Positions 7,314-25,118 of a DNA stretch of 28,096 nt are shown one piece after another. The stretch's first letter is position 1. Each line of letters begins with the position of its first letter. The stretch lies in IMG/VR virus record IMGVR_UViG_3300019776_000345, positions 1 to 28,096 of that record. One strand, given 5' to 3'. This DNA is from a virus. A program made the translations under genes and the position numbers. A model generated the notes under the pieces. The model did no database searches. It saw nothing but the letters and a program-made list of their open reading frames with translations, and was not told the DNA's origin.

Positions 7314-7326
7314 CTACACAAGTGAA
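7314..7326 (+). promoter_or_regulatory. TTACACAAGTGAA-type site over the endolysin start
   Basis: CTACACAAGTGAA differs from the best copy in this genome (19302) at the first base only. The GTG start codon of the endolysin gene is inside the site, so a protein bound here would cover the ribosome start region in DNA. AAGGA just upstream serves as ribosome site. Role as an operator is inferred. Confidence 0.5.
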
Positions 7327-7723
7327 ACTCTCGCCCACAAGCGAGGGTCGGCTCAAAGGCGTCCACCCTGACCTCGTTCGGGTGGTACGCCGAGCTGCCG
7401 CCGATTGGCACGACGACAACCTCTCCTTCATTGTCACATGCGGTCTCCGCACCTTGGCAGAACAGAAGGTACTCGTTGCCAAGGGCGCATCCAAGACCCT
7501 CAACTCTCGACACATCCCAGGCAAGGATGGCTATTCCAAAGCAGTGGACCTCGCAGCGATGCTCAATGGTAAACTGAAGTGGGACTGGCCGCTCTATGCC
7601 AAACTGGCTGCATCCATGAAGGCTGCGGCTGCTGCTGAGAAGGTCACCATCGAATGGGGTGGTGACTGGCGCACGTTCAAGGACGGCCCGCACTTCCAGC
7701 TCCCAAAGAAACTCTACCCGTAA
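7322..7723 (+). CDS. Endolysin, M15-family (D-Ala-D-Ala carboxypeptidase / L-Ala-D-Glu peptidase type)
   Basis: The 133-residue protein has the hallmarks of zinc M15 peptidases that cut peptidoglycan cross-links: SRH at 62-64 and VD at 75-76 for the first two zinc ligands, then E111, D115 and PHF with H124 near the C-terminus. Eight or so residues between His64 and Asp76 make this loop longer than the common HxxGxAxD pattern. No signal peptide or membrane anchor is seen, so it should need a holin, and the next gene fits that. The start is GTG, after AAGGA. It takes the lysis role that T7 gives to its gp3.5 amidase, and no amidase gene is present between the endonuclease and primase genes. Cleavage specificity is uncertain. 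Confidence 0.88.
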   Translation: MKLSPTSEGRLKGVHPDLVRVVRRAAADWHDDNLSFIVTCGLRTLAEQKVLVAKGASKTLNSRHIPGKDGYSKAVDLAAMLNGKLKWDWPLYAKLAASMKAAAAAEKVTIEWGGDWRTFKDGPHFQLPKKLYP

Positions 7724-7730
7724 AGGAACC

Positions 7731-7743
7731 TTACACATGTTTA
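7731..7743 (+). promoter_or_regulatory. TTACACA-type site over the holin-like start codon
   Basis: TTACACATGTTTA matches the 13-bp motif at 10 positions. Its ATG is the start codon of the holin-like gene. AAAGGA lies 8 bases before the ATG, so the conserved TTACACA fills the spacer between ribosome site and start. Confidence 0.4.
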
Positions 7744-7928
7744 AGGGCTACCGTACCTACATCCTCGCTGGTGTCGCCGTGATCTCGGCTGTCGCTGGCT
7801 ACCTCGTTGGTGATCTCTCGGTCACTGAGGCCTCTCAGCTCGTGCTGACTGCTGTCCTTGGTGCCACCATCCGCTCTGGTGTGAACACCGCTGCTGAGAA
7901 GGCAGTCGATAAGGCATCGAGCAAGTAA
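7737..7928 (+). CDS. Holin-like small membrane protein
   Basis: The 63-residue product begins MFKGYRTYILAGVAV. It has a hydrophobic segment at about 8-25 and a second, weaker one at about 35-47, then a charged C-terminus ending EKAVDKASSK. Size, topology and position between endolysin and terminase match T7 gp17.5 holin, which makes the membrane lesions that release the endolysin. The open frame extends upstream, but this ATG has AAAGGA at good spacing and avoids a large overlap with the endolysin gene. The stop overlaps the next start (TAATG). It could also be a pinholin or an antiholin; no experiment-independent sign separates these. Confidence 0.7.
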   Translation: MFKGYRTYILAGVAVISAVAGYLVGDLSVTEASQLVLTAVLGATIRSGVNTAAEKAVDKASSK

Positions 7929-8387: not shown

Positions 8388-8606
8388 ATGGCAGACCACC
8401 GTGCTACCGAAGATACCCTTGGTATCATCCACGAGAGGCTTGCTCTCAAGTTCATTAACATCCTCGAAGGCGAACCAACGGCTGCAGAGCTGGGTGTGAT
8501 CGCCAAGTTCCTCAAGGACAACAACATCACGGCCAAGGCCACTGCCAATAATGCCCTAGGGGCGCTCATTGGTAAGCTCCAGGCCACCATGGAAGACGCG
8601 GATTGA
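8388..8606 (+). CDS. Terminase small subunit (T7 gp18-like)
   Basis: The 72-residue, mostly helical product MADHRATEDTLGIIHERLAL... lies directly before the large terminase gene, the T7 gene 18/19 arrangement. The segment with LKFINILEGEPTAAELGVIA and KFLKDNNI is typical of small terminases of T7-like phages, which recognise concatemer DNA and assist the large subunit. It is a little shorter than T7 gp18 (89 residues). ATG at 8388 follows GGAAGG with a short spacer; the frame is open upstream but that part overlaps the previous gene. The stop overlaps the TTG start of the large subunit. Confidence 0.8.
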   Translation: MADHRATEDTLGIIHERLALKFINILEGEPTAAELGVIAKFLKDNNITAKATANNALGALIGKLQATMEDAD

Positions 8607-10303
8607 CCAAGTCTAACGAAGAAGCACTCGATATCCTGAGGGGAGACTTCAAGCTGTTCCTGGCAATGACCTGGGACTACCTGAACCTCCCCTCCCCCAC
8701 CCCTCTCCAGTACGACATCGCTGACAGATTGGCCAATGGTGAGACTAAGATCGCCATTGAGGCCTTCCGTGGTGTCGGTAAGAGCTTCCTCACGTCTGCC
8801 TATGTGGTCTGGGAGCTACTAAGGGACCCCCAGAAGAAGATTTTGGTGGTCTCTGCATCGAAAAACAGGGCCGACAACTTCACCACGATGACCATGGGCC
8901 TCCTACAGATGCCTGCGGTACGACACCTGATCCCCAAGGAGGGACAGAGGCAGTCCAAGGTGGAGTTTGATGTCGCCCCTGCGATCATCGACCAGTCTCC
9001 AAGCGTCAAGAGCGTAGGTATCACCTCCCAGATCACTGGTACTCGTGCTGATATCATCGTCGCTGATGACGTGGAGGTGATGAACAACAGTGCTACCAGC
9101 GATATGCGCGAGAAGCTGCTTGAGAGGACCAGGGAGTTCTCTGCTATTCTCAAGCCGCTGCCTAGTGCGAAGACGATCTACCTGGGTACGCCTCAGACAG
9201 AGGACTCGATCTACAACAAGCTGCCTGAGACCTTCAAGGTTTACATCTGGCCTGCCCAGATACCCACGGCTGAGGAAGCCGAGAAGTATGGCGACAGGCT
9301 AGCCCCGTACATCAGGAAGCTCAAAGGGGCTCCAGGTGATCCCACTGATCCAAAGCGGTTCACAGCGACTGACCTGTTGGACAGGAGACTCGAGTATGGT
9401 GCCTCTGGGTATCAGCTCCAGTTCATGCTCAACACCCAGCTCAGTGACGAGGACCGCTATCCCCTCAAGATCAGGGACCTCATCATCGCTGATACGAACA
9501 GTGAGACGGCTCCTATGGTCTATCACTGGATGCCTGACCCTGATCGACAGTGGAAGGACCTGCCTAACCTGGCAATGCACGGGGATAGGTTCTATGCCCC
9601 AATGTCTGTCTCTAAGGACTTCGCTCCCTACACAGGCTCAGTCATGGCCATCGACCCTAGTGGCCGTGGTAAGGACGAGACTGGCTATGCAGTCGTCAAG
9701 ATGCTCAATGGCTACCTCACTGTACGAAGGTGCGGTGGTCTCCAAGGCGGCTACGATACCAAGACCCTCCAGGGTTTAGCCATGATCGCCAAGGAGGAAC
9801 AGGTGAACCACATTGTCTACGAGAGCAACTTTGGTGACGGTATGTGGGGTGAGCTCTTCAAGCCTGTCCTCGCCAAGGTCCACCCTTGTATGGTCGAGGA
9901 GGTCAAGCACTCTGCACAGAAGGAGCTGCGGATCATCGACACCATCGAACCAGTGATAGCTAGGCATAGGCTGGTGGTCGATAAGAAGGTGATCGAGGAT
10001 GACCACAGGTCTGCCCAGCAGTACGATGCTGAGAACAGGTACACCAAGACCCTCATCTACCAGATGACCAGGGTGACCAAGGACAGGGGAGCCTTGAAGC
10101 ACGACGATAGACTCGATGCCCTGGCGATTGCCTTGGCTTACTGGGTCGAACAGATGGCCGTGGATGACAGGAAGGGCCTCAAGGATCGTCGGCAGGAGCT
10201 GATGGACCTGGAGCTGGAGCGGTTCATGGAACACGCTATTGGCATGGGCAACCAAGGGTATGCAAGGTCATCCAATAGCTGGATAGGCAATAGGGGCCTC
10301 TAA
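8603..10303 (+). CDS. Terminase large subunit (T7 gp19-like DNA packaging ATPase/nuclease)
   Basis: The 566-residue packaging motor has an N-terminal ATPase with Walker A at 54-61 (AFRGVGKS) and Walker B at 151-157 (IIVADDVE, D155/D156). Its C-terminal RNase H-like nuclease shows acidic residues at D351 (MAIDPSGRGKDETGY) and D501/D502/D505 (HDDRLDALA). Length and motif order match T7 gp19. The start is TTG overlapping the small-subunit TGA, so it is probably coupled to upstream translation. It is the last structural/packaging gene before a long gene-free stretch, as in T7 near the right genome end. Two short hairpins follow the stop. Confidence 0.95.
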   Translation: MTKSNEEALDILRGDFKLFLAMTWDYLNLPSPTPLQYDIADRLANGETKIAIEAFRGVGKSFLTSAYVVWELLRDPQKKILVVSASKNRADNFTTMTMGLLQMPAVRHLIPKEGQRQSKVEFDVAPAIIDQSPSVKSVGITSQITGTRADIIVADDVEVMNNSATSDMREKLLERTREFSAILKPLPSAKTIYLGTPQTEDSIYNKLPETFKVYIWPAQIPTAEEAEKYGDRLAPYIRKLKGAPGDPTDPKRFTATDLLDRRLEYGASGYQLQFMLNTQLSDEDRYPLKIRDLIIADTNSETAPMVYHWMPDPDRQWKDLPNLAMHGDRFYAPMSVSKDFAPYTGSVMAIDPSGRGKDETGYAVVKMLNGYLTVRRCGGLQGGYDTKTLQGLAMIAKEEQVNHIVYESNFGDGMWGELFKPVLAKVHPCMVEEVKHSAQKELRIIDTIEPVIARHRLVVDKKVIEDDHRSAQQYDAENRYTKTLIYQMTRVTKDRGALKHDDRLDALAIALAYWVEQMAVDDRKGLKDRRQELMDLELERFMEHAIGMGNQGYARSSNSWIGNRGL

Positions 10304-10539: not shown

Positions 10540-10549
10540 TCACTATGAC
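10540..10549 (+). promoter_or_regulatory. TCACTATGAC element near the presumed right genome end
   Basis: This exact copy of the early-gene start element has no ribosome site in front. It opens a 35-codon frame (10545-10652) of odd Trp/Cys/Pro-rich composition that I do not accept as a gene. Upstream is GATTAAAT and downstream GGGGG. The CACTAT core and G-rich downstream bases recall T7-family RNA polymerase promoters (CACTATAGGG). It may mark a phage promoter like T7 phi-OR, but the spacing to the start G differs by one base from T7. Confidence 0.3.
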
Positions 10550-10794
10550 GGGGGTGGGCCGCTGGGCCTGCCCTTGTGTGCCATGGTGTGACGTGGTCTG
10601 GCGAGGGCCGGACTGGATAGGCCAGCACCAGCAACCACATGGCAGGGATTGATAGTCCCTTGCATGGCCAATGGGCTGGGGGCTGCAGGGTGGCGCAAGG
10701 GGCCGGACCATGGGCGGAGGCGATAGGTAAGCATTGCTGACCTTGTTCGTTCTGCCCTAGGTTTTTCGAATTGTCTAGTAAGCCTGTCGAGTAT

Positions 10795-10818
10795 GCTTAT
10801 TAGTGAAATCTAATATGC
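10795..10818. repeat. Imperfect inverted repeat in the AT-rich island
   Basis: GCTTATTAG, six bases TGAAAT, then CTAATATGC pair with one mismatch. The core TATTAG/CTAATA is perfect. An operator or early-control site is possible. Confidence 0.55.
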
Positions 10819-10933
10819 TCACTGGCGGCCCTCTCGTAGCTCTAGGTAGCCAAGTAGCCCTCAGAAAACCTGCCGTCCTAGGCCCCTCCTAGGCCCAGCA
10901 AATGGCATTCTAATGTGCTGCACTGCACAATAG

Positions 10934-10951
10934 GTAAAGAAATTTCTTTAC
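10934..10951. repeat. Perfect 18-bp palindrome
   Basis: GTAAAGAAATTTCTTTAC reads the same on both strands with no spacer. It lies in the AT-rich part of the genome-end region, upstream of the early genes, where a dimeric regulator could control early transcription or where a cleavage or replication protein could act. Confidence 0.75.
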
Positions 10952-10959
10952 TCATATAT

Positions 10960-11039
10960 CCCATTGGTTGACCCAGGCTGCCCATTTTTACACCTATCTA
11001 AAGGTGTATATGTTGCAATGCACTGTCGCCCATTGGTTG
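10960..11039 (+). repeat. Direct repeat CCCATTGGTTG, two copies 69 bp apart
   Basis: CCCATTGGTTG occurs at 10960-10970 and 11029-11039. Each is followed after three to four bases by a related CA(G/T)GGCTG sequence, so the similarity extends over about 21 bases. The interval holds the 10989-11008 inverted repeat. Short tandem repeats next to the terminal repeat are known in T7, but function here is unknown. Confidence 0.6.
10989..11008. repeat. Inverted repeat TACACCT/AGGTGTA
   Basis: TACACCT, six bases, AGGTGTA pair perfectly. The left arm begins TTTACAC and the right arm ends GTGTA, echoing the half-sites of the TTACACAAGTGAA motif seen elsewhere but with a wider spacer. It may be a stronger binding site of the same or a related protein near the expected early promoters. 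Confidence 0.5.
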
Positions 11040-11070
11040 CACATGGCTGGGCCTAGGCTCTCCGCTTCGC

Positions 11071-11080
11071 TCACTATGAC
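11071..11080 (+). promoter_or_regulatory. TCACTATGAC element near the presumed left genome end
   Basis: A second copy outside a recognised gene start. It opens a 39-codon frame (11076-11195) without ribosome site. Its place, ahead of the early genes, is that of T7 phi-OL. As at 10540, a phage-polymerase promoter is possible but unproven. Confidence 0.3.
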
Positions 11081-11395
11081 GCCATGCCCTCCACTCATAA
11101 ATACACACGGGGCAAGCCATGCGCTGTGTGCATGGGTGCTATGCACATTCAATCGTTGCACATCTGCAGGGGTTACGCCATATTGGGGTCACTGAACGAG
11201 ACCAGACAGGCGTCACCCCGGCAACGGCCCTCGCGGCCCTCTTTGACCCGGGCGGAAGCAGCCCCGCTCTCAATCTTTAGCGACCCAGCCCGTCTGCCGG
11301 GAGTCAAACCGCCACTATCACCCTCGCAAGCTAGGAACGCTGAGGGGCGGTCACTGGAAAGGGTCCAAACCCCGCCACAGGATGTGCGGGCACGA

Positions 11396-11436
11396 CTAGC
11401 TAGAGATTAGCTAGGCCCCTGCTTAACGGTAGGGGC
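11396..11436 (+). other. Tandem hairpins in the leader of the first early gene
   Basis: CTAGCTA-GAGAT-TAGCTAG (11396-11414, perfect 7-bp stem) abuts GCCCCT, ten bases, AGGGGC (11415-11436). They end 22 bases before the ribosome site of the 11470 gene. There is no T-run. Tandem stem-loops at early-gene borders could be RNase III-type processing sites, as in T7 early mRNA, or an mRNA-stability leader. Confidence 0.5.
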
Positions 11437-11469
11437 TCACTAATCCCTTGCAACCTACGGAGAACGACA

Positions 11470-11634
11470 ATGCTTCAAGACCCCAAGGTATACGCCGCAA
11501 CGCTGATGTATTGCTGCAACTACAACATGGCTGACGCAATCAAGATGGCTGTGGAAGCGCAAGCCAAGTTTCCCGGCATGTCTGACGGGTATCTCGTTGA
11601 CGTAATCATCGCTATCACTGAAGCAGGAAGGTAA
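11470..11634 (+). CDS. Hypothetical early protein, 54 aa
   Basis: First gene after the gene-free region. ATG follows GGAGA by 6 bases. The product (MLQDPKVYAATLMYCCN...) is probably helical: one segment around 17-33 (NYNMADAIKMAVEAQAK), another around 39-53 with Ile/Val. I do not recognise a family. Being first in line from the expected host promoters, it holds the place of T7 gene 0.3 (anti-restriction), but it does not resemble Ocr and has no strong negative charge, so no function is claimed. Confidence 0.6.
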   Translation: MLQDPKVYAATLMYCCNYNMADAIKMAVEAQAKFPGMSDGYLVDVIIAITEAGR

Positions 11635-11638
11635 TCCC

Positions 11639-11740
11639 ATGCACCCCAATATGAAGCGCCTCCTTGGTCTCGATGGTGTGAAGCCTGTCCTTCACGACAA
11701 GACATGGCCCACACCCGTCGATATCCCTGTGAAGGACTAA
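11639..11740 (+). CDS. Hypothetical early micro-protein, 33 aa
   Basis: ATG at 11639 follows GAAGG by 7 bases and starts 4 bases after the previous stop. The product is MHPNMKRLLGLDGVKPVLHD followed by KTWPTPVDIPVKD, soluble and Pro-rich at the end. No family is recognised. It is supported only by ribosome site, tight spacing and strand. Confidence 0.45.
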   Translation: MHPNMKRLLGLDGVKPVLHDKTWPTPVDIPVKD

Positions 11741-11745
11741 GACCA

Positions 11746-11766
11746 TGCCTCGCCATGTGCGGGGCA
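11746..11766 (+). terminator. Hairpin between early genes, terminator-like
   Basis: TGCCTCGC-CATGT-GCGGGGCA forms an 8-bp stem with one G-U pair, followed by TTCCTTAATCC. The tail is only partly T-rich, so it may attenuate or process the early transcript rather than stop it. A 9-codon frame starting at 11744 overlaps it and could be a leader peptide, but I have no evidence that it is translated. Confidence 0.4.
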
Positions 11767-11775
11767 TTCCTTAAT

Positions 11776-11808
11776 CCTTACACAAGCGAAAGGTTTTCAC
11801 TATGACGC
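11776..11808 (+). promoter_or_regulatory. Early-gene leader repeat, copy 1
   Basis: CC-TTACACAAGCGAAAGG, four bases, then TCACTATGACGC; the ATG is the start of the 259-aa gene. TTACACAAGCGAA (11778-11790) matches the dispersed 13-bp motif at 12 of 13 positions and GAAAGG is the ribosome site. Copies 2 and 3 are at 12586 and 13759, so a whole leader cassette seems to have been copied among early genes. Confidence 0.7.
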
Positions 11809-12581
11809 GCACCCCTGTTGCCAAGTCTTCCATCATCTATCGTGGCCCCTCGCTTATCGATGGCGCACCCATTGTGGTGGTGGCCAAGGTCTCAGCCTCT
11901 CGCAACGCTAAGACTGGCCCCATGATCCAGACCTACATCATTCGCGAAGACATGAGCCCCTTGGAGGCATCCAAGACAGGCCAGGACTATTCGATCTGCG
12001 GCACCTGTCCCTTGCGTGGCAACGCAACCAATGATCCCAAGCGTAAGCAGGCTGAGGGACGGCGCTGCTATGTGGTGCTGGGCCAAGGTCCCCAAGGTAT
12101 CTATAAGGGCCTCAAGCGCGGCATCTATCCCACGGTCTCAGGCCATGGCGCTATCGCTGCCCTTGGCATTGGTCGCATGGTGCGCCTTGGCACCTATGGT
12201 GACCCTGCTGCTGTGCCCAGCTACATCTGGGAAAGCCTCGTATCCCTCGCCAATGGTCGCACCGGGTACACCCATCAATCGGGTGTGGCTGGTGCTGATG
12301 TGCGCCCCGACCTGACCATGGTCTCGGCTGATACCCTTGAGATTGCACAGGCCGCATGGGCCAAGGGCAATCGTACCTTCCGGGTCATCAAGTCCATTGA
12401 TGAAATCGTGAAGGGCAAGGAAATCAATTGCCCTGCATCCGCTGAGGCTGGGTTCCGCACCACATGCAACGAGTGCGGCCTGTGTGCTGGCAACACTGTC
12501 AAGGCCAAGTCCATCGCCATTGTCGATCACGGCCCCATGAACCGCAAGGCTGTGTTCAATCGTGTCAAGGCAATCGCTTAA
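11802..12581 (+). CDS. Early cysteine-cluster protein, 259 aa, function unknown
   Basis: The product has two cysteine groups: C66-x2-C69 with C89, and C210 followed by C222-x2-C225-x2-C228. A C-x11-C-x2-C-x2-C pattern can hold an iron-sulfur cluster or zinc. Between them lies a mixed alpha/beta region with Gly-rich turns (GHGAIAALGIGRMVRLGTYG at 114-133). I know similar Cys-rich proteins only as uncharacterised phage proteins. ATG at 11802 follows GAAAGG by 8 bases within the shared leader repeat. As the largest early gene it may act on host metabolism or nucleic acids, but that is a guess. Confidence 0.75.
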   Translation: MTRTPVAKSSIIYRGPSLIDGAPIVVVAKVSASRNAKTGPMIQTYIIREDMSPLEASKTGQDYSICGTCPLRGNATNDPKRKQAEGRRCYVVLGQGPQGIYKGLKRGIYPTVSGHGAIAALGIGRMVRLGTYGDPAAVPSYIWESLVSLANGRTGYTHQSGVAGADVRPDLTMVSADTLEIAQAAWAKGNRTFRVIKSIDEIVKGKEINCPASAEAGFRTTCNECGLCAGNTVKAKSIAIVDHGPMNRKAVFNRVKAIA

Positions 12582-12585
12582 CAAT

Positions 12586-12618
12586 CCTTACACAAACGAA
12601 AGGAAATCACTATGACGC
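12586..12618 (+). promoter_or_regulatory. Early-gene leader repeat, copy 2
   Basis: CC-TTACACAAACGAAAGG, three-base spacer AAA, TCACTATGACGC. Nearly identical to copy 1 over 33 bases except within the spacer and one base of the 13-bp motif (12588-12600). It begins 4 bases after the previous stop, so it is the entire intergenic region. Confidence 0.7.
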
Positions 12619-12809
12619 TCTCCCTCTTTTCTGTTGTCGAACGTCCTGAACTGTACATCAGCCGAGAGACCGCCAGCGAGGTGGCCAAGGTCGTCCGTTC
12701 GTGGGGCTATCGCGCCACCGTGTGGCACAAGGCTGAACGTGATGAACGGGGCTTCGCTGTGGCTGTGTCGTCTAACAATGGTTTTGAGGGTTATGCCCAT
12801 GCGCTGTGA
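12612..12809 (+). CDS. Hypothetical early protein, 65 aa
   Basis: Product MTLSLFSVVERPELYISRET... is predicted as a small alpha/beta fold: helix about 19-31 (TASEVAKVVRSWG), strand with TVWHKAE, strand with FAVAVSS. ATG lies in leader repeat 2 with GAAAGG as ribosome site. The stop is 11 bases inside the next gene, which suggests coupling. No family is recognised. Confidence 0.65.
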   Translation: MTLSLFSVVERPELYISRETASEVAKVVRSWGYRATVWHKAERDERGFAVAVSSNNGFEGYAHAL

Positions 12810-13029: not shown

Positions 13030-13034
13030 TCACT

Positions 13035-13142: not shown

Positions 13143-13143
13143 C

Positions 13144-13461: not shown

Positions 13462-13463
13462 CC

Positions 13464-13754: not shown

Positions 13755-13758
13755 CCAA

Positions 13759-13792
13759 CCTTTACACATATCAAGAGGTTTCACTATGACGC
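13759..13792 (+). promoter_or_regulatory. Early-gene leader repeat, copy 3
   Basis: CC-TTTACACATATCAAGAGG, two bases TT, TCACTATGACGC. It is more diverged than copies 1 and 2 and one base longer; the 13-bp motif at 13762-13774 matches 10 of 13. AGAGG is the ribosome site of the kinase gene. Confidence 0.65.
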
Positions 13793-14466: not shown

Positions 14467-14472
14467 ATCACT

Positions 14473-14550: not shown

Positions 14551-14560
14551 TAAGGAAACT

Positions 14561-14573
14561 TTACACATGAGAA
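14561..14573 (+). promoter_or_regulatory. TTACACA-type site over the 14567 start
   Basis: TTACACATGAGAA matches 11 of 13 bases of the dispersed motif and contains the start codon. AAGGAA is upstream. The arrangement (ribosome site, CTTTACAC, ATG) is the same as at the holin-like gene 7737. Confidence 0.45.
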
Positions 14574-14737
14574 GCGACCTTCCCTACCGCGCAGAGCTTC
14601 ACGGCACTGGCGGCATCATCGCCATCCTCGAGCACACTAGCCTCGACTACATCAAGGCCGTGGTTGCGCGTGAGTGGCTCCCCACCATGCAGCATGGCGA
14701 CACGCTGAAGATCATCGAAACCGCTCACGAGGTATAA
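14567..14737 (+). CDS. Hypothetical early protein, 56 aa
   Basis: Product MRSDLPYRAELHGTGGIIAI continues LEHTSLDYIKAVVAREW and ends in ETAHEV. It looks like a small beta-alpha-beta unit. AAGGA precedes ATG by 11 bases. It is followed after four bases by the next gene. No family recognised. Confidence 0.6.
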   Translation: MRSDLPYRAELHGTGGIIAILEHTSLDYIKAVVAREWLPTMQHGDTLKIIETAHEV

Positions 14738-14741
14738 CCAC

Positions 14742-14990: not shown

Positions 14991-14996
14991 ATCACT

Positions 14997-15503: not shown

Positions 15504-15506
15504 CCA

Positions 15507-16146: not shown

Positions 16147-16533
16147 ATGAAACAGGGCGACACCATGTTCGACATTGCTAACTTCTTGAGCGGCGCTGAG
16201 GCCTTCTATGCCATCAGTGACCAAATGCCTGTGAGCTACATCCTCACCCTCTTGTGGGTGGCACAGAACCCTGATGGCAACCAGCTCGATCTTGAGAAGT
16301 ACCTAGGCAGCTCCAACGCCACCGCGTCTAGGGCTGTCAAATACTGGTCCAAGTGGAAGTCACCACGGCAGGGTGGCACCCACGGGGCTGACTACATCGA
16401 CATCTATCAAGACCCTGCAGACCGTAGGTACAATCGGCTGAGGCTCACGCCTACTGGCAAGATGTTCATCGCCAACTTGAAGGAGAAGTTCAAATGGCAA
16501 GGCAACACAGGGACGGCTGGCAAGCAGACGTGA
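16147..16533 (+). CDS. MarR-like winged-helix transcriptional regulator
   Basis: The 128-residue protein has the MarR fold pattern: N-terminal helices, VSYILTLLWVAQ (29-40), a helix-turn-helix with recognition helix about SSNATASRAVKYWSKW (55-70), and a wing with DPADRRYNRLRLTPTGKMF (89-107), close to the MarR consensus DxRDRRxxxLxLTxxG. Such dimers bind palindromic operators. Its 3' end overlaps the integrase gene by 40 bases, so the two are co-expressed, and this is the best candidate for a lysogeny repressor or an integration/excision control protein. AGAGG is 8 bases before ATG 16147; ATG 16165 is an alternative. No other repressor-like gene (CI type) is present in this window. Confidence 0.75.
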   Translation: MKQGDTMFDIANFLSGAEAFYAISDQMPVSYILTLLWVAQNPDGNQLDLEKYLGSSNATASRAVKYWSKWKSPRQGGTHGADYIDIYQDPADRRYNRLRLTPTGKMFIANLKEKFKWQGNTGTAGKQT

Positions 16534-17465
16534 TCCACGAGGGGAAGCGGCTGCGAAAGCAGTTCGCTACCCAGCTAGCTGCAGAACAGTGGGAAGACTC
16601 GTATCGCATCGGTTCCCCTGACAAGACCAAGCCCACCTTGCTGGACTACGTGAAGCCCAGGATCGACATGATCTGGGAACGAGGGTCTAAGCATGGCGAC
16701 AAGCAGTTTCGTCATCTGCGATACATGCACAAGTTCATCGACTGCCCAATGGAGGACATTACACAGCTCAAGGTCAATGAGCTCATCTCTGGTCTACAGA
16801 AGCAGGGCGACACTGGCGGCACCATCAACAGGAAGCTGGCCGCGCTATCCAAGGCCCTCAAGTATGCCAAGCACGAGGGTGCCTACTCTAGGGAGCTGCC
16901 TAGGTTCACACGTCAGCGTGAGCCCAAGGGCCGCATCCGTTACCTTGAGTGGGACGAGGAGAAGCGCCTGTCTACCGAGCTGGCCAAGTTCAACCCGCGC
17001 TACCCTGACTTCGTCGCCTTCATGTGTGACACAGGGGTGCGCTGTAGCAACGGGGTGGACCTCCTGTGGAAGGACGTGAAGCTACCTGTCGGCAATGGTC
17101 GAGGACAGATCACCTTGTGGGAAACCAAGCAGGGTGAGCCCCAGACCGTACCCCTGACCGCCCGTGCGGTCGAGGCCCTACAGCGGCAAGACAAGAAGGC
17201 CACAGGCCCTTGGAAGTGGCTCAACCCTTGGACCCTACGCAAGCACATCAAGGAGGCGGCGATAGCGGCTGGCCTTGGGGATGAGATCGTGATCCACACC
17301 TTCAGGCACACCTGTGCATCCAGGCTTGTGATGAAGGGGGTAGACATCAGGAGGGTCCAGAAATTCATGGGCCACAAGACAATCACTATGACACTGAGGT
17401 ACGCCCACCTCGCTCCCAAGGAACTGGAGAGCTGCGTGGATGCCCTCGATATGATGGGAGTGTGA
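16494..17465 (+). CDS. int: Tyrosine integrase (site-specific recombinase)
   Basis: The 323-residue protein has an N-terminal arm-binding-like part (DGWQADVIHEGKRLRKQFAT), a core-binding SAM-like region (about 50-140) and the catalytic domain with Arg183, Lys212, His268-x2-Arg271, His294 and nucleophile Tyr303 in TITMTLRYAHL. All catalytic residues are present, so the enzyme should be active. It would insert the phage genome into the host chromosome at an att site. The gene lies upstream of the RNA polymerase gene, the place of int in T7-like cyanophages such as P-SSP7, and about 400 bases before a tRNA-Cys-like sequence. It starts within the MarR-like gene. TCACTATGAC at 17387-17396 inside it encodes the ITMT of the conserved motif and is probably chance. 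Confidence 0.95.
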   Translation: MARQHRDGWQADVIHEGKRLRKQFATQLAAEQWEDSYRIGSPDKTKPTLLDYVKPRIDMIWERGSKHGDKQFRHLRYMHKFIDCPMEDITQLKVNELISGLQKQGDTGGTINRKLAALSKALKYAKHEGAYSRELPRFTRQREPKGRIRYLEWDEEKRLSTELAKFNPRYPDFVAFMCDTGVRCSNGVDLLWKDVKLPVGNGRGQITLWETKQGEPQTVPLTARAVEALQRQDKKATGPWKWLNPWTLRKHIKEAAIAAGLGDEIVIHTFRHTCASRLVMKGVDIRRVQKFMGHKTITMTLRYAHLAPKELESCVDALDMMGV

Positions 17466-17861: not shown

Positions 17862-17914
17862 GGCCTCGTGGTAGAGTGGCTATACAGAGGACTGCAAATC
17901 GGTTCTCGAGCTCC
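17862..17914 (+). other. tRNA-Cys(GCA)-like remnant, putative attP core
   Basis: The sequence starts like a tRNA: acceptor-like GGCCTCG, a D-arm GTA...TAC with GAGTGGCTA, and an anticodon loop CTGCAAA (GCA, Cys) preceded by GAGGA. After CAAATC it loses tRNA form: the 3' anticodon stem does not pair well, variable loop and most of the T-arm are missing, and it ends in GAGCTCC, reminiscent of an acceptor end with a small deletion. It cannot be a working tRNA. Phages with tyrosine integrases commonly carry part of a tRNA gene as attP, with crossover at the anticodon loop. Its place downstream of int fits. The matching host tRNA-Cys would confirm it. Confidence 0.45.
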
Positions 17915-17926
17915 TACACAAGTCAA
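17914..17926 (+). promoter_or_regulatory. 13-bp motif copy at the edge of the tRNA-like element
   Basis: CTACACAAGTCAA matches the best copy at 11 of 13 positions and follows the tRNA-like sequence directly. It is not near a start codon, so it cannot be explained as a translation signal. Confidence 0.5.
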
Positions 17927-17949
17927 GACACTTCCAACACGCTGATAAT

Positions 17950-17976: not shown

Positions 17977-17990
17977 GTTTTCCCTATAGA

Positions 17991-18003
17991 CGCACTTGTG
18001 TAA
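17991..18003 (-). promoter_or_regulatory. 13-bp motif copy on the - strand after the terminator
   Basis: The reverse strand reads TTACACAAGTGCG, 11 of 13 matches. Together with 17914-17926 it flanks the terminator in opposite orientation. Confidence 0.5.
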
Positions 18004-18052
18004 TCCCTGTAGACCAGCCTGGCACTCCACAAATCAAGGGGTTACAGCATGG

Positions 18053-18204: not shown

Positions 18205-18278
18205 AGTATAACTCTAGTTAAACTGGTATTAATAGGTGATAGTAGGCACCCTTAACATCAGTTAACTAGAGTTATACT
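18205..18278. repeat. 17-bp inverted repeat immediately upstream of the RNA polymerase gene
   Basis: AGTATAACTCTAGTTAA (18205-18221) and its exact complement TTAACTAGAGTTATACT (18262-18278) are separated by 40 bases; CTG/CAG extends the match after a one-base gap. Further partial copies, GTAACTCTA at 18183 and GTATAACTGG at 18195, lie just upstream. The right arm ends two bases before ATG 18281 and contains a -10-like TATACT. As DNA it looks like a set of operator sites allowing looping; as RNA it could form a long stem covering the start. Confidence 0.85.
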
Positions 18279-18280
18279 TT

Positions 18281-21088
18281 ATGTCTTCCTCTTGTCTTCC
18301 TGTGTCACACAGCGACGACTTGGGAGAATACTATCCTTCGACTCAATCGCTATACACTGGCTCACAAAAGGATACGCCATTGAAGATTGACATGACTGAG
18401 CGTCAGGTCGCCCTAGAAGCGGCGAACCTGGAGCAGTTTCGAATGGTAAGGGATAGGCGTCTGAGGTCTGATATCAAGTCGGGTCGCTACGCTGAAACGA
18501 TGGAAGGTAGGTCGATCTCCAGCCTCCTTCTGTCTCCCTTGTCCCAGGCCCTAGAGGACTACCGTGCTAAGACCGTAGAAGGTCGTGTCGGGGTCAAGAG
18601 GGATGAGGTCGCTGCACACCTGATTGGTGAGCTGACCCCTGAGGTCACCGCCCTGATCTTCCTGTCTACCCTGTTGAACCTTCTCTCCATGGTCGAGCGG
18701 GGGCAGCCCAAGCCTGTGATGCTGTCGGCGTTCTGCCGCCACTTCGCTGGCAACTGCCTCGATGAGCTGGCCGTGCGCGAGGCCTTCGCTATCCGCCCCA
18801 AGATGGTCAAGGCCATGATGGCTGACGCCAAGTCCAAGGCGTCTCCGCGCCTGTGGACCAAGAGGGCCATGGGAAACTACGTGAACTTCAAGCAGCCCGC
18901 CTTCGTCACACGCTTCAAGCACGTCGAGGGGTTCTGGGGTAACATTGGCGCTGCCGTGCTTGAGGTCGCCTCTGCCCTGCACCTCGTGCAGATCGTGACG
19001 ATCTACAAGGACAAGCGGTCCTACTACCACGTATACCCGACCAACGGCCTCGTTCTCCTGATGGAGGAAGCGGCCCGCAAGGGTAGGCTCGTGTCTACCG
19101 ACTATGACCCCATGGTCTGCCCTCCCCGCCCTTGGGGATTGGATGCCAAGGGTGCTGCTGGTCGTGAGTACGGCGCTGACTTCTTCGTCGGCGGCTACCT
19201 CACTGGTCACATCAGGCCGTACCCGTTCGTCAAGGCGAAGGGGCAGTCTCGTAAGATGGTGAAGGACGTTCGTCGCAAGTCTGCCGACATGAGGACACTG
19301 CTTACACAAGTGAATGCCCTGCAGAACACCGCGTGGCATGTCAACCCTGTGATCCTCAGCGTGATGGAAGAACTCTGGTTCAACCGTCGAGGCAACATTG
19401 CAGGACTACCGAATGCCGTGACCTTGGAAGAGAAGCTAGCGGGTGGCCATGTGCTGCCTGATGACAAGCTGTCTCGGTTCAAAGAGATCGATGAGGACCG
19501 GAGGAACCTATCCCTCAGGCTCTACATCAATCGCATGATCGCCAAGGCCAAAGCGTTTGGTCACTATGACGAAATCTACATGCCCTATTCCGTTGATAGC
19601 CGTGGGAGGGTTTATGCGATCCCTGTAGCACTCAACCCTCAGGGACCGGACTATCAGAAAGCCCTCCTTGAGTTCGCTCAAGGGAAGCCTATCAGCTCCA
19701 GGGATCGTAGCTGGTACTGGCTGGCTGTCGGTATCGCTAACACCTACGGCAAGGACAAGCTCTCGCTTGATGACCGTGTCGAATGGGTGAAGGCGAACCA
19801 AGACCTGATCCTCAGCGTGGCTACTAATCCACTCACCGACCTTCGCTGGACCACTGTGTCTGAGCCGTGGCAGTTCCTCCGGGGATGTCTCGACTGGAAG
19901 GGCTGGAAGGATCAGGGTGACGGCTTCCTGTCTCATTGGGCAGTTGCTGTCGATGCCACATGCTCTGGACTACAAGTCTACTCCATGCTGTTCAAGGATG
20001 AGGTAGGTGGGCGATCTGTCAACCTAGTTCCTGGTCTTGAACGACAGGACATCTATGGCGATGTGGCCAATCGAGTGAAGGACCGTCTTCGCGAGATACT
20101 GGTGACCTCTACACTTGTGCAGAGGAAGCAAGAAGCTCGTGAGGTATGGAATGACGCTATCGCTGTGTTCAAAGCCCAAGGGTTCGACATGCAGCTCCTT
20201 CGTCCCACCGTGTTCAACATGGCGACCAAGGATTTGCTGGAGAGCTACAAGGGTGAGGATGCACTGATCGAAGCGCTGACCCAAGCGAAGAAGGCTTACA
20301 ACAAGGTTCGCCGCATCTTAGGTAGGGCCAACATTGCTAGGCACCTTCTAACATGGGACTTTGACCGTAGCGCCACGAAGCGCCAGGTGATGACGCTGCC
20401 ATACGCGGCAACACAGAGGTCGTGCTTTCTTTACACTCGCGATTACCTAAGCGAACGCATCAAGTCTGGAGAGGCCCTGCCACACGGCTGGTTCAAGAAG
20501 GACTTCGATAATCACGCCATGTTGCTCAGTGATAACATCTGGGCTGCCATTGGTGAGGTCGTGGTAAAAGCGAAGGAAGGGATGACTTGGTTCCAAGCGT
20601 CCATCCGTGAGTATGTGAAGAAGAACCCTGACAAGCCGTTCGGCTGGTACGCACCTGACGGACTGTTCTGCTTCCAAGCGAAGTGGGACATGGACACTCG
20701 CCGTGTAGAGACGTTTCTCAATGGCGAGATGATCAAGCCTTCGTTCGAAGTCGAGACTGATGAGGTTGATCCTAGGGGCATGGCGCAAGCCGTGGCTCCA
20801 AACATCATCCACTCAATCGACGCTGCGATACTCAGGGCTGCCACTGGTAAGGCAATCACACGACAAGAACCACTGAGGCACTTCGCGTTCATTCACGATA
20901 GCTTTGGTGTTCACGCTGCAGACATGGAGGTCTTCTTGAACGAGTGCTTGAAGCCCGCGTTCGTAGAGATATTCAAGTCTGACATTCTCTCCTCCTTGAA
21001 AGACTCGTTTGGCACTGAGCTGCCGCCTCCCTCTCAGGGCAACCTGGATTTGGATGGCGTCCTCTCTAGCCAGTTCTGCTTCTCCTAA
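18281..21088 (+). CDS. Single-subunit DNA-dependent RNA polymerase (T7 gp1-like)
   Basis: The 935-residue protein aligns along T7 RNA polymerase (883 residues). Catalytic Asp558 is in DATCSGLQ, Lys700 and Tyr708 in RSATKRQVMTLPYA, and Asp873 in FIHDSFG; the C-terminus is GNLDLDGVLSSQFCFS against T7 GNLNLRDILESDFAFA. It transcribes middle and late phage genes from its own promoters. The start is uncertain: ATG 18281 gives an N-terminus of T7-like length but lacks a ribosome site; TTG 18380 has AAAAGGA 7 bases upstream; ATG 18392 begins MTERQVAL. If the TATACT at 18273 is a -10 box, the shorter starts are right. The gene follows a terminator and an inverted repeat, so it seems to have its own controlled promoter. 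An exact 13-bp motif lies at 19302 inside it. Confidence 0.97.
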   Translation: MSSSCLPVSHSDDLGEYYPSTQSLYTGSQKDTPLKIDMTERQVALEAANLEQFRMVRDRRLRSDIKSGRYAETMEGRSISSLLLSPLSQALEDYRAKTVEGRVGVKRDEVAAHLIGELTPEVTALIFLSTLLNLLSMVERGQPKPVMLSAFCRHFAGNCLDELAVREAFAIRPKMVKAMMADAKSKASPRLWTKRAMGNYVNFKQPAFVTRFKHVEGFWGNIGAAVLEVASALHLVQIVTIYKDKRSYYHVYPTNGLVLLMEEAARKGRLVSTDYDPMVCPPRPWGLDAKGAAGREYGADFFVGGYLTGHIRPYPFVKAKGQSRKMVKDVRRKSADMRTLLTQVNALQNTAWHVNPVILSVMEELWFNRRGNIAGLPNAVTLEEKLAGGHVLPDDKLSRFKEIDEDRRNLSLRLYINRMIAKAKAFGHYDEIYMPYSVDSRGRVYAIPVALNPQGPDYQKALLEFAQGKPISSRDRSWYWLAVGIANTYGKDKLSLDDRVEWVKANQDLILSVATNPLTDLRWTTVSEPWQFLRGCLDWKGWKDQGDGFLSHWAVAVDATCSGLQVYSMLFKDEVGGRSVNLVPGLERQDIYGDVANRVKDRLREILVTSTLVQRKQEAREVWNDAIAVFKAQGFDMQLLRPTVFNMATKDLLESYKGEDALIEALTQAKKAYNKVRRILGRANIARHLLTWDFDRSATKRQVMTLPYAATQRSCFLYTRDYLSERIKSGEALPHGWFKKDFDNHAMLLSDNIWAAIGEVVVKAKEGMTWFQASIREYVKKNPDKPFGWYAPDGLFCFQAKWDMDTRRVETFLNGEMIKPSFEVETDEVDPRGMAQAVAPNIIHSIDAAILRAATGKAITRQEPLRHFAFIHDSFGVHAADMEVFLNECLKPAFVEIFKSDILSSLKDSFGTELPPPSQGNLDLDGVLSSQFCFS
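19302..19314 (+). promoter_or_regulatory. Reference copy of the 13-bp motif inside the RNA polymerase gene
   Basis: TTACACAAGTGAA, used as the reference because the half-sites TTACAC and GTGAA are most nearly symmetrical with a two-base centre. It codes for LHKxx-free residues (the reading frame gives L-T-Q-V-N), so position inside the gene does not depend on a protein motif I recognise. An intragenic site in the polymerase gene is what a roadblock (stoperator) would look like. Confidence 0.45.
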
Positions 21089-21091
21089 CCC

Positions 21092-21104
21092 TTACACTTG
21101 TGAA
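21092..21104 (+). promoter_or_regulatory. 13-bp motif copy after the RNA polymerase gene
   Basis: TTACACTTGTGAA has the same arms as the reference with the central AA replaced by TT, as expected if either strand orientation of a near-palindrome is allowed. GAAGGA, the ribosome site of the next gene, overlaps its end. Confidence 0.5.
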
Positions 21105-21112
21105 GGACATAC

Positions 21113-22448: not shown

Positions 22449-23092
22449 TGGCTAACAAGAAAGCCCCCGAGCAGTTCACGTTCCCCAAAGGTGAAGCCCT
22501 CTTCGCCCGTCTCGACCAGCCCTACACTTTCTCCAAGCGGGACAAGCGCACCGTTGCGTGTCGCCCGTCTGACAATGGCGCTGCCTATTCGATCAGCATC
22601 AAGCTGCCGAGCAAGGAGGCCAATCCGATCATCAAGAAGATCAAGGACGCTTGGAAGGAATACAACTCTGAAGAACAGCCGGAGAACTGGCCGTTCATGA
22701 ATGAGAAGGATCGTGAGACTGGTGAGGCCACTGGCAACATCATCTTCAAGACCAAGTTCAACGCATCGTGGACCAACAAGGACGGCAGCTTCGCTACTGT
22801 TCCGATCTACGATGCCAAGGGCCACAAGCTCCCCCAGAAGTTCGACATCGGCAACGGCTCCATCATTCGTGTTGGCGTCCAGCTCGTCCCGCATGACATG
22901 CAGGGCGGTGGTATCTCCCTGCGCCTCAAGGGTGTCCAGGTGATCACCCCGAATGGCTCTGGCTTCGACTCGATGTTCAACGAGGAAGACGGCTACGAAG
23001 GTAGCTCTTCGTCGGCTGATGAGGACGATGAGGCTGAAGATCAGACCAACGATAACTCGTCGTCTGACCTCGATGAGGACATCCCGTTCTAA
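22448..23092 (+). CDS. Single-stranded DNA-binding protein (T7 gp2.5-like)
   Basis: The 214-residue protein has an OB-fold-like body (ISIKLPS, WTNKDGSFATVPIYDAKG, IRVGVQLVPHDMQGGGISL, LRLKGVQVI) and a long acidic Ser/Asp/Glu tail ending SSDLDEDIPF. The acidic tail with terminal Phe is the T7 gp2.5 feature that docks onto DNA polymerase and primase-helicase. Length is close to gp2.5 (232 residues). It coats ssDNA and coordinates replication and recombination. Position before the endonuclease matches T7 2.5-3 order. Confidence 0.92.
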   Translation: MANKKAPEQFTFPKGEALFARLDQPYTFSKRDKRTVACRPSDNGAAYSISIKLPSKEANPIIKKIKDAWKEYNSEEQPENWPFMNEKDRETGEATGNIIFKTKFNASWTNKDGSFATVPIYDAKGHKLPQKFDIGNGSIIRVGVQLVPHDMQGGGISLRLKGVQVITPNGSGFDSMFNEEDGYEGSSSSADEDDEAEDQTNDNSSSDLDEDIPF

Positions 23093-23095
23093 TCT

Positions 23096-23512
23096 ATGGC
23101 ACGTTCAACAATCTGGAAGCCCGTTCGCGAGGACGGGTTTCGCTCTGGCTTTGAAGCGAGGATCGCTGAGGAGCTGACTGCAAAAGGTGTTCACTACGAA
23201 TACGAGAGTGAACTCATTCCCTACATCAAGCCTGCCACCAAGGCGACCTATAAGCCTGACTTCGTGTTTCTGAAGAAGGACGGCGGCTGGATGTACATCG
23301 AACTGAAGGGCCGCTTCCTCTCTGCTGACCGCAAGAAGACGCTACTCATTCTCGACCAGTACCCTGACATCGATCTGAGGTTCGTGTTCTGGCGAATGAA
23401 TGACCGCATCTCCAAGCAGTCCAAGACCACATACGCAATGTGGGCTGAGAAGAATGGCATCAAGTACGCTCAATCACACATCCCTGATGAATGGCTAGAT
23501 GAGGTAAAATAA
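23096..23512 (+). CDS. Endonuclease I, Holliday-junction resolvase (T7 gp3-like)
   Basis: The 138-residue protein aligns with T7 endonuclease I: FRSGFEAR with Glu20, TYKPDF with Asp55, and YIELKG with Glu69 and Lys71 for the metal site, then DRKKTLLILDQYPDIDLRFV against T7 DRKKHLLIREQHPELDIRIV. The C-terminus ends IPDEWLDEVK. It resolves branched replication DNA and in T7 helps degrade host DNA. Ribosome site is weak (3-base gap after the previous stop). No T7 3.5 lysozyme gene follows: the primase begins two bases later. Confidence 0.95.
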   Translation: MARSTIWKPVREDGFRSGFEARIAEELTAKGVHYEYESELIPYIKPATKATYKPDFVFLKKDGGWMYIELKGRFLSADRKKTLLILDQYPDIDLRFVFWRMNDRISKQSKTTYAMWAEKNGIKYAQSHIPDEWLDEVK

Positions 23513-23513
23513 T

Positions 23514-25118
23514 TTGGAACGTCACGACGACTCAGACTTTGTAATGCACATCCCGTGCGAGAACCCGGAGTGTGGGTCGTCGGACGCCAACGCTCTGTAT
23601 ACTGACGGTCACACCTATTGCTTCGCCTGTAACACCCACGGCAAGGGTGGCGACACTGCTACTCAAGTCGATCCTCCTGAGGATGACAACGAGACATTCA
23701 AGGTGCAGGGTGTAATCAAGGCGCTCTATGCCCGCCGTATCGACCAAGACACCTGTGATCACTTTGGCTACAGGGTTGGCAAGTACAACGGTAAGCCCTG
23801 TCACTTCGCTTATTACTATGACGACACTCGCAAGCCCATTGCTGCGAAGCTGAGGTTCGAAGACAAGTCGATGACCACCATCGGCCAGTTCAAAAAGGTT
23901 GGCCTGTATGGTCAGCACCTCTGCAGAGACAAGGGCAAGATGCTTGTCGTGACAGAAGGCGAGATTGACTGCCTCACCGTTGCACAAGTGCAGGGCCTGA
24001 AGTGGCCTGTGGTCTCCATCCCCAATGGAGCTGCTGGTGCCGAGAAGTCATTCAGGAAGAACCTTGCGTTCCTTGAGGGCTTCGAGAAGGTCGTCATCAT
24101 GTTCGACATGGATGACCCAGGTATCGAAGCGGCCAAGGCTGCAGCACGAGTACTGTCCCCTGGTAAAGCCTACATCGCCTCGCTGCCCCTGAAGGACCCC
24201 AACGAGATGCTTCTCGCTGGCCGTCGATCAGAGATCATCGATGCGATCTGGTCTGCCAAGGCCTACCGCCCTGATGGCATCATCAGCGGCCAGGACATGT
24301 GGGCAGAGCTCAGTGACACCACTGTAGTCAAGTCTATCCCCTATCCCTTCCCTGCCCTCAACGACAAGACGTGTGGCATCAGGAAGCGTGAGCTGGTCAC
24401 GATCACCGCTGGTACTGGTGTAGGCAAGTCAGCCTTCATCAGGGAGGTGGCCTACGATCTGCTGACCAACCACCACATGAAGGTAGGCATGGTGATGCTT
24501 GAGGAGTCCCCCAAGCGCACGATGCAAGGCCTGTGTGGCATCGACATGAACAAGCCCATCCACTTGGGTGTGCCTTATGATCAAGAGGAGTTACGGTCTT
24601 CATTCCAAAAGCTCACCAACGAAAATCGCTTACACTTGTATGATGGTTTCGGCTCCCTCAACGGGAACGATCTAGTAGACAGGCTGCGGTACTTCGCAGT
24701 TGGTCTCCAGTGCGACTTCATCTTCCTAGACCACCTCAGCATGGCTGTGAGTGGCCTGGAGATGCAGGATGAACGCAAGGCCATCGACATCCTAGTCACT
24801 CGTCTGCGTACCCTCGTGGAAGAAACTGGTGTCGGCCTTCTCATGGTGTCCCACCTCCGTCGAGTAGATGGAAACAAGGGCCACGAGAATGGCATTGAAG
24901 TTGGCCTGAACCACCTGCGTGGATCACAGGCTATCGCACAGCTCTCCGATCTGGTCATCAGCCTTGAGCGTGACCAGCAAGGTGAGAACCCCAATGAGAC
25001 AAAGGTCCGTGTTCTGAAAAACAGGTTCAGCGGTGCCACTGGCGTTGGCTGCACCTTGGAATACGACATGGACACTGGTCGGCTTACACAAGGAGTACTG
25101 AATGACTCTCCGTTCTGA
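23514..25118 (+). CDS. Primase-helicase (T7 gp4-like)
   Basis: The 534-residue replicative protein has an N-terminal zinc finger (C15-x4-C20 and C36-x2-C39; T7 has C17-x2-C20), a TOPRIM primase core with VVTEGEIDCLTV and MFDMDDPG, and a RecA-type helicase with Walker A GTGVGKS (Lys305), FIFLDHLSMAV and arginine-finger region VRVLKNRFSGATG. It unwinds DNA at the fork and primes the lagging strand. The start is TTG, with GAGG 9 bases upstream; ATG 23544 (MHIPC) would leave the zinc finger intact as well. It is shorter than T7 gp4A (566), mainly at the C-terminus: it ends LNDSPF, less acidic than the T7 tail but still with terminal Phe. Confidence 0.95.
   Translation: MERHDDSDFVMHIPCENPECGSSDANALYTDGHTYCFACNTHGKGGDTATQVDPPEDDNETFKVQGVIKALYARRIDQDTCDHFGYRVGKYNGKPCHFAYYYDDTRKPIAAKLRFEDKSMTTIGQFKKVGLYGQHLCRDKGKMLVVTEGEIDCLTVAQVQGLKWPVVSIPNGAAGAEKSFRKNLAFLEGFEKVVIMFDMDDPGIEAAKAAARVLSPGKAYIASLPLKDPNEMLLAGRRSEIIDAIWSAKAYRPDGIISGQDMWAELSDTTVVKSIPYPFPALNDKTCGIRKRELVTITAGTGVGKSAFIREVAYDLLTNHHMKVGMVMLEESPKRTMQGLCGIDMNKPIHLGVPYDQEELRSSFQKLTNENRLHLYDGFGSLNGNDLVDRLRYFAVGLQCDFIFLDHLSMAVSGLEMQDERKAIDILVTRLRTLVEETGVGLLMVSHLRRVDGNKGHENGIEVGLNHLRGSQAIAQLSDLVISLERDQQGENPNETKVRVLKNRFSGATGVGCTLEYDMDTGRLTQGVLNDSPF

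Follow-up and report, generated by a model that had tools for sequence, protein, structure and literature searches.

The 28,096-base record IMGVR_UViG_3300019776_000345 (hereafter the window, that is, the whole stretch analysed) belongs to a T7-like phage and carries, dispersed in the gaps between its genes, copies of an 18-bp imperfect palindrome, CCTTACACAAGTGAAAGG, that are considered here as candidate operators of lysogeny control. Late genes lie at the left (a large gene, an endolysin, the small terminase and the large terminase) and are followed by a long non-coding stretch and by early genes at 11.5-15.9 kb; further rightward come, in this order, a MarR-like regulator, an integrase, an RNA polymerase, a single-strand binding protein, an endonuclease, a primase/helicase, a DNA polymerase and PhoH (Table 1). 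The capsid region is absent from the window. Deposited phage records give 2636 matches to the RNA polymerase, none of which reaches 60% identity; the 40 matches listed are at 29 to 37%.

Table 1. Palindromic sites, candidate repressors and neighbouring genes in the window
Feature	Coordinates	Strand	Sequence	Context
Large late gene	4518-7310
Site	7312..7329	+	GACTACACAAGTGAAACT	2 nt past stop of the 4518-7310 gene; overlaps endolysin GTG start; weaker, 13 bits
Site	7729..7746	+	CCTTACACATGTTTAAGG	8/9 pairs; 6 nt past endolysin stop; overlaps ATG 7737 of next gene
Large terminase gene	8603-10303
Weaker site	10986..11003	+		14 bits; long early non-coding region; overlaps a promoter of sigma70 type (TTTACA-16-TATGTT)
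Site	11776..11793	+	CCTTACACAAGCGAAAGG	Upstream of phrog_2554 gene
Site	12586..12603	+	CCTTACACAAACGAAAGG	5 nt past stop codon, before early gene 12612
Site	13760..13777	+	CTTTACACATATCAAGAG	6 nt past stop codon, before kinase-like gene 13786
Site	14559..14576	+	CTTTACACATGAGAAGCG	Overlaps ATG 14567
MarR-fold regulator, preferred candidate repressor	16147..16533	+		phrog_9665, E 1.4e-18; just upstream of integrase
Tyrosine integrase	16494..17465	+		phrog_1, E 6.4e-49
Site	17912..17929	+	TCCTACACAAGTCAAGAC	Between integrase and RNA polymerase genes; marginal statistics; adjoins tRNA-Cys-like stretch, ahead of terminator-like hairpin 17950-17974
Reverse copy	17988..18005	-	GATTACACAAGTGCGTCT	Upstream of RNA polymerase gene
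Second palindrome class	18205..18278	.	AGTATAACTCTAGTTAA / TTAACTAGAGTTATACT	Perfect 17-bp inverted repeat directly upstream of RNA polymerase gene
T7-like RNA polymerase gene	18281..21088	+		phrog_414, E 1.1e-181; start may be 18380
In-gene copy	19300..19317	+	GCTTACACAAGTGAATGC	RNA polymerase gene; exact 13-mer; possibly real
In-gene near-palindrome	20107..20124	+	CTCTACACTTGTGCAGAG	RNA polymerase gene; possibly real
Site	21090..21107	+	CCTTACACTTGTGAAGGA	2 nt past RNA polymerase stop; counterpart of the relatives' post-polymerase palindrome
HTH_39 winged-helix protein, rival candidate repressor	25102..25482	+		Pfam E 5.7e-12

The repeated palindrome in the window

A preliminary description of this DNA, made from the letters alone, had singled out a dispersed 13-bp near-palindrome and proposed that it marks binding sites of a dimeric phage repressor. 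All the copies listed there exist, give or take one base, and the word is enriched over composition-matched random sequence: with up to three mismatches, the 13-mer TTACACAAGTGAA has 21 matches in the window against 4.6 expected, and none of 100 dinucleotide shuffles (mean 4.6, largest 10) reaches that number. The word is real, but the unit is 18 bp long and the 13-mer is only its core. Copies of the 18-bp palindrome often begin a few bases past a stop codon, and a motif search limited to the gaps ranks the same motif first (18-mer score 41, compared with 5 to 10 in three shuffles); unrestricted k-mer searches are dominated by codon usage. When each of eight gap sites was left out of its own matrix, six of them (7729, 11776, 12586, 13760, 14559 and 21090) had scores expected 0 to 0.025 times across all gaps, and the weaker sites at 7312 and 17912 had scores expected 0.13 to 0.23 times by chance. 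Twelve gap sites of the window exceed 9 bits, an 11-fold enrichment over coding sequence. The near two-fold symmetry is borne out as well, since only 0.3% of column permutations of the gap motif are as palindromic.

The copies inside genes are mostly near chance. There are 10 in-gene hits of at least 10 bits (at 8 places, two of them on both strands), compared with a mean of 3.8 and a maximum of 9 in 200 synonymous-codon shuffles, and the two best, which are the exceptions, both fall within the RNA polymerase gene: the exact 13-mer at 19302, whose score is equalled by the best hit in 1.5% of the synonymous shuffles, and next the palindrome at 20107. The in-gene copies at 24630 and 27208 score 11.4 and 13.4, where the best hit per shuffle averages 13.2, and are no longer counted as members; nor is the copy at 25084 (TTACACAAGGAGT), which is probably for the most part a ribosome-binding site before ATG 25102.

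Counterparts in related phages

Relatives were gathered through the terminase (25 loci) and through an early protein (47 loci); G and L numbers below are our own handles. The exact composite pattern of the window word has no match in viral contigs, and the relatives that share the terminase carry 0 to 3 + 2 copies of TTACACA, compared with 10 + 2 in the 28 kb of the window. Since every phage spells its sites differently, however, conservation of the word is unsuitable as a test; what related phages keep is the symmetry and the placement of the sites. An unrelated-looking contig that shares only the phrog_2554 early gene with the window (L072) has 4 + 3 copies of TTACACA within its 14 kb, a density equal to that of the window.

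De novo searches of the gaps yielded another dispersed motif in each of six relatives (G016, G001, G005, G006, G004 and G017), with one copy directly after the stop codon of the polymerase gene, and no such motif in G018, G007 and G012. The main motifs of CRP403, G016, G001, G005, G006 and G017 are symmetric by the permutation test (0 to 2.3% of column permutations are as symmetric), as is that of Pasto (0.7%). A palindrome-constrained search, reporting the top two motifs, was then applied to 32 genomes with a located polymerase end, 21 of them MarR-positive and 11 MarR-negative (G002, G014 and L005 were left out for want of a polymerase end). It places a copy at +2 to +5 past the polymerase stop in 11 of the 21 MarR-positive genomes and in one of the 11 MarR-negative ones (G004, an incomplete contig).

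A genome scan by polymerase alignment added 80 loci in bacterial genomes, 78 of which have a usable polymerase end and many of which are probably prophages, although they were not checked singly. After removal of 14 redundant loci, of L181 and L211 (no usable polymerase end) and of L244 (too short), 84 non-redundant loci were available, comprising 15 MarR-positive phages and 69 bacterial-genome loci, with MarR status known for a minority of the latter (7 kb on each side). A palindrome of at least 6 of 9 pairs begins at +2 to +5 in 23 of the 84 loci (null mean 3.4, largest 11 in 5000), and where such a palindrome is present anywhere within +1 to +39 (40 loci), the best one begins at +2 or +3 in half of the cases (20/40). 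Extra copies of the 18-mer (14/18 letters, -3.7 to +7 kb) in these 23 loci average 1.09, against 0.44 for control 18-mers; at least one further copy is held by 17 of the 23, several of these copies lying just upstream of the polymerase gene. In a seed test, which starts from the post-polymerase 18-mer and is passed when the resulting gap family is equalled by no more than 2 of 25 random gap seeds, 16 of the 21 MarR-positive genomes pass, compared with 2 of the 11 MarR-negative genomes (Fisher p 0.0025).

Placement was assessed on all sites that score more than 9 bits in the gaps of 17 genomes, which gave 199 sites, 162 of them in gaps of at least 10 bases between predicted genes. Forty-one of these 162 sites start +1 to +7 past a stop codon (7.0 expected), as do 24 of 140 (6.0 expected) once the post-polymerase sites are excluded. 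The centres of 11 of the 199 sites lie inside sigma70-like promoters, compared with 104 of 6800 gap positions picked at random (p 0.0003); in the window this concerns the site at 10986, and 4 of the 11 belong to G001. Less complete site lists gave larger effects (31/103 against 4.2 after stop codons, from 116/139 sites in eleven phages, and 10 of 124 in promoters against 1.3%). As regards possible autoregulation, 10 of the 16 MarR-bearing genomes have a site no more than 200 nt ahead of the MarR gene, against 4.0 expected, as measured to the tblastn match; in the window this is a weak 10-bit site. Enrichment of gaps over coding sequence ranges from 3.2 to 29-fold and holds in 17 of the 17 genomes scanned, although for CRP118, three HTVC phages and G004 the seed was supplied by a relative or by the post-polymerase site itself. 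In site lists without weaker or overlapping hits, 73 of the 99 sites of ten phages are co-oriented, and several phages have no bias.

Transcription starts have been mapped by ONT-cappable-seq in LUZ100, a T7-like Pseudomonas phage that encodes MarR and an integrase (PMC10134795). The gaps of LUZ100 give two motif classes, namely the mapped phage promoters, TTACCACACAGGTATGGA, and a palindromic class, CTATCCACTAGCGCATAG, which has a copy 3 nt past the polymerase stop; the phage-promoter copies after the polymerase gene lie further downstream than this palindrome. In the permutation test the T7 promoter comes out at 32%, the LUZ100 promoter at 62% and the second LUZ100 class at 0%. With the last base of the annotated promoter feature taken as the start site, two strong palindromes span -29 to -12 in P1 and in P2, both of them mapped host promoters, where they occupy the 17-bp spacer between TTGACA and TAAGAT and sit where a classical operator would. 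There is no palindrome in P3, the promoter of the MarR-integrase operon. Eight of the 12 LUZ100 sites are more than 150 bp away from any mapped start, and five of these more than 1.5 kb, a distance that only suggests elongation roadblocks. Eleven of the 12 are co-oriented, and three copies lie in the late region.

These data bear on the possibility that the motif serves as a promoter for the T7-type RNA polymerase that the phage itself encodes, co-evolving with that enzyme, in which case the post-polymerase copy would mirror T7 promoter phi1.1A, found just after the polymerase gene. Such a promoter would be expected to lie in gaps, mostly in a single orientation as in the window, and to vary in spelling between phages as polymerase specificity does; moreover, no clear separate promoter class is seen in the window, G001, G004, G005 or G006, late-region motif searches for a phage promoter in the relatives gave nothing clear, and we take the G016 motif to resemble the T3 promoter. 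Nevertheless, the promoter interpretation appears unlikely because the mapped phage promoters of LUZ100 are a different, non-palindromic motif. This is a better argument than the position of sites in early genes, on which the preliminary description relied and which carries little weight, LUZ100 having a phage-polymerase promoter upstream of its polymerase gene. Furthermore, a monomeric polymerase would not be expected to use a palindrome, host promoters are occupied by two of the LUZ100 copies, and strong copies are found in the early and polymerase region but are rare or weak in the structural region of G001, G005, G006, G017 and CRP403, although LUZ100 has three late copies. Besides the +2/+3 palindrome, G017 and the Limnohabitans phage YIMV22061 carry second repeated classes, TTAGGGACCACCATTGCA and TCCCCCACTAGTAGAGGA, respectively, which are possibly their phage-polymerase promoters. 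An intermediate form of the promoter interpretation, derived from the varied motifs after the polymerase stop, was dropped once the LUZ100 control showed two motif classes.

An element that acts at the level of RNA, such as a translation-initiation context or a small hairpin at gene boundaries that would tune translation or processing, can be considered highly improbable. The right halves of the window sites do coincide with ribosome-binding sites or start codons: the overlap with start codons that had been described earlier applies to 7314 (GTG 7322), 7731 (ATG 7737) and 14561 (ATG 14567), whereas the copies at 11778, 12588, 13762 and 21092 instead overlap a ribosome-binding site. In addition, another repeated start context, CACTATGAC, is present in early genes. 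However, many copies in G017, G006 and G001 are at least 50 nt away from a predicted start codon, single sites keep only about 5 of the 9 pairs, and folding of the RNA at seven window sites is mostly ordinary, with one site clearly better than its shuffles (z -2.1) and the others at z -1.3 to 0.5. The two LUZ100 copies between the -35 and -10 boxes are, by their position, outside the RNA started there.

A probable operator network and its candidate repressor

We favour, with some confidence, the interpretation that the 18-bp sites are an operator network through which the phage controls lysogeny, with the MarR-like protein 16147 as its most likely binder. A dimeric repressor fits because the site family is palindromic, dispersed and intergenic and because two LUZ100 copies lie inside mapped host promoters; the occupation of P1 and P2 by LUZ100 palindromes likewise supports control of initiation. 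In a lysogen, the repressor dimer would occupy host-type promoters of the early region, the surroundings of the RNA polymerase gene and gene boundaries and would keep the T7-type polymerase as well as the early, replication and lysis genes silent, with promoter-distal copies acting as stoperator-like roadblocks. The sites are probably bound by a repressor, and the MarR-like protein is probably the binder; roadblock action at gene boundaries is plausible from the placement of the sites. The network originally proposed is thus retained as a set of dispersed intergenic palindromes that accompanies an integrase and a MarR-fold protein and has similar families in relatives, but several of the sites first assigned to it are not members.

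Both proteins named earlier, 16147 and 25102, remain candidates, and the former is preferred. Against Pfam, 16147 matches MarR_2 with an E-value of 0.0022 and 18.5 bits, under the cut-off of 27. Its AlphaFold model (pLDDT 85, pTM 0.76) has MarR, MexR and SlyA among its best matches in the PDB (best E 1.5e-5, TM-scores about 0.45 to 0.67), and the 50 PDB matches listed are all MarR-type regulators or unnamed regulators of that kind, so that the protein, as modelled, has the MarR winged-helix fold. The operators of MarR proteins are palindromes of about 16-20 bp, a range that includes the 18-bp palindromes of the window. For the 19 proteins of the window that were scanned, the PHROGs hits include no immunity-repressor family. 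Two T7-like loci of Vampirovibrionales have tandem MarR-like genes upstream of the polymerase, three in L172 (5466-6752) and two in L194 (5931-6743).

The operators could instead belong to the HTH_39 protein 25102 or to a host factor, with the MarR-like protein using the inverted repeat at 18205-18278. The winged-helix domain of 25102 is clear, and its homologues occur in 16 of the 32 genomes, including Pasto and LUZ100, whose homologue gp18 (E 1.3e-12) is annotated as putatively DNA-binding. The repeat at 18205-18278 is perfect, with a spacer of 40 nt, and abuts the polymerase gene; six of the seven hits of this class (consensus GTTTAACTCGAGTTAAAC) are located between 18171 and 18277. This alternative is nevertheless rather unlikely. 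The MarR-like protein is preferred because among the genomes that pass the seed test are three pelagiphages, HTVC109P, HTVC119P and HTVC201P, in which MarR is present but no HTH_39 protein is detected, whereas no genome passes with HTH_39 alone: the only HTH_39-positive genome that lacks MarR, the incomplete contig G004, fails. It is preferred also because the stretch ahead of the MarR gene tends to hold a site, with counts above expectation as given above, and because MarR is encoded with the integrase. Furthermore, a single palindrome family flanks the polymerase gene on both sides in several relatives.

A number of observations weigh against an operator network bound by 16147. As regards the binder, the seed test is passed by 13 of the 16 genomes with HTH_39 and by 5 of the 16 without it (p 0.006), and the palindrome class at 18205-18278 could be the true MarR operator. 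Among the MarR-positive genomes, ten have no post-polymerase copy in the blind palindrome-constrained search (Pasto, where it is at +15, HTVC019P, HTVC109P, HTVC119P, HTVC200P, HTVC201P, CRP118, G007, G013 and G018), five fail the seed test (G018, HTVC200P, HTVC019P, G001 and CRP804), and G007 passes it with a hardly palindromic seed (2 of 9 pairs) and with more coding than gap hits. The MarR-negative BB8 and SP6 both pass, BB8 without a recognisable MarR gene or HTH_39 protein, and the top motif of G004 is not palindromic (63% of permutations). With the plain threshold of 6 of 9 pairs, the association in the same 32 genomes is weak (10/21 compared with 2/11, p 0.10), and all the genomes are related by descent, so that the group tests, the seed test included, are not independent. 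Within the window, the post-polymerase site at +2 has 5 of 9 pairs (6 of 9 at +1), under this threshold; the left half of the motif is better conserved than the right (13.6 and 8.2 bits), 8 of 10 sites have the same orientation, and the coincidence of right halves with translation signals, already described, belongs here too. One-way orientation combined with asymmetric conservation would agree with a roadblock that acts in one direction or with sites that double as promoter elements.

The closest known counterparts of the proposed operators are the stoperators of cluster A (L5-type) mycobacteriophages, described as 13-bp asymmetric sites of a monomeric two-domain repressor (PMC9283540). As in L5, there are many short sites of one family, located at promoters and in short intergenic gaps, and the phage origin of the L5 repressor (PMC9283540) has a parallel in the phage-encoded candidates; the orientation of L5 sites tends to follow transcription (PMC9283540), to which the shared orientation of most window sites may be a parallel. 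Unlike the asymmetric L5 sites of that account, those of the window are 18-bp imperfect palindromes; the candidates are MarR-fold and HTH_39 proteins rather than homologues of the immunity repressor of cluster A, and this T7-like phage has an RNA polymerase of its own. Whereas L5 stoperators are defined by their block of elongation, the likeness here is one of site placement. For T7-like phages, MarR-based lysogeny control has been put forward in which the binding sites lie on either side of the promoter that precedes the RNA polymerase gene (PMC10134795, citing Boeckman et al. 2022). The window shares with the LUZ100 proposal the MarR gene beside the integrase. The sites described here, found also within P1 and P2, past the polymerase stop and throughout the genome, appear to go beyond that proposal; the main text of the LUZ100 paper (PMC10134795) uses none of the words operator, palindrom and inverted repeat. 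Like T7-type promoters, the sites are repeated, gap-located and phage-specific, with one copy after the polymerase gene; unlike them, they are palindromic by the permutation test, and in LUZ100 promoter and palindrome are different motifs. The literature searched gave no account of palindromic sites that form a network across the genome of a T7-like phage. One paper, on a T1-like phage, reportedly mentions both 'stoperator' and 'Autographiviridae' (PMC11447400).

More tentatively, and with the balance of probability somewhat against it, temperate T7-like phages might have independently built a stoperator system of their own, in which a winged-helix repressor of the MarR type and an 18-bp palindrome, privately spelled in each phage and placed at a near-fixed distance after stop codons, would block host (perhaps also phage) RNA polymerase at gene boundaries, flank the polymerase gene and define immunity groups. 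The question at stake is how a phage with a very active single-subunit RNA polymerase stays silent in the lysogen; the repressor sites proposed in the papers searched are confined to the stretch ahead of the polymerase gene. The palindrome a few bases past the polymerase stop would also offer a sequence handle for recognising temperate T7-like phages and prophages, for predicting immunity groups and for probing elongation roadblocks by a MarR-type protein.

Other repeats and signals in the window

A tRNA-Cys-like stretch, recognised by eye at 17862-17900 between the integrase and polymerase genes, is probably the attachment site; it shows 87% identity over 39 nt to a sequence just upstream of the T7-like polymerase gene of Aminobacter sp. 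J41 (L243), and neither ARAGORN nor Rfam finds a tRNA there. The intrinsic terminator-like hairpin at 17950-17974, also between the two genes, corresponds in place to terminator T4 of LUZ100. In the early non-coding region, a perfect 18-bp palindrome, GTAAAGAAATTTCTTTAC, is present at 10934-10951, outside the TTACAC family.

The 9-mer mentioned above as a start context occurs in 10 copies on the plus strand and none on the minus strand, spanning 10540-17391, at the early-gene starts 11797, 12607, 13030, 13781, 14468 and 14992 and elsewhere. Most of these copies form a uniform translation-start context of early genes (TCACT-ATG-AC), and CRP-403 has an analogous start context, AACACTTACC-ATG.

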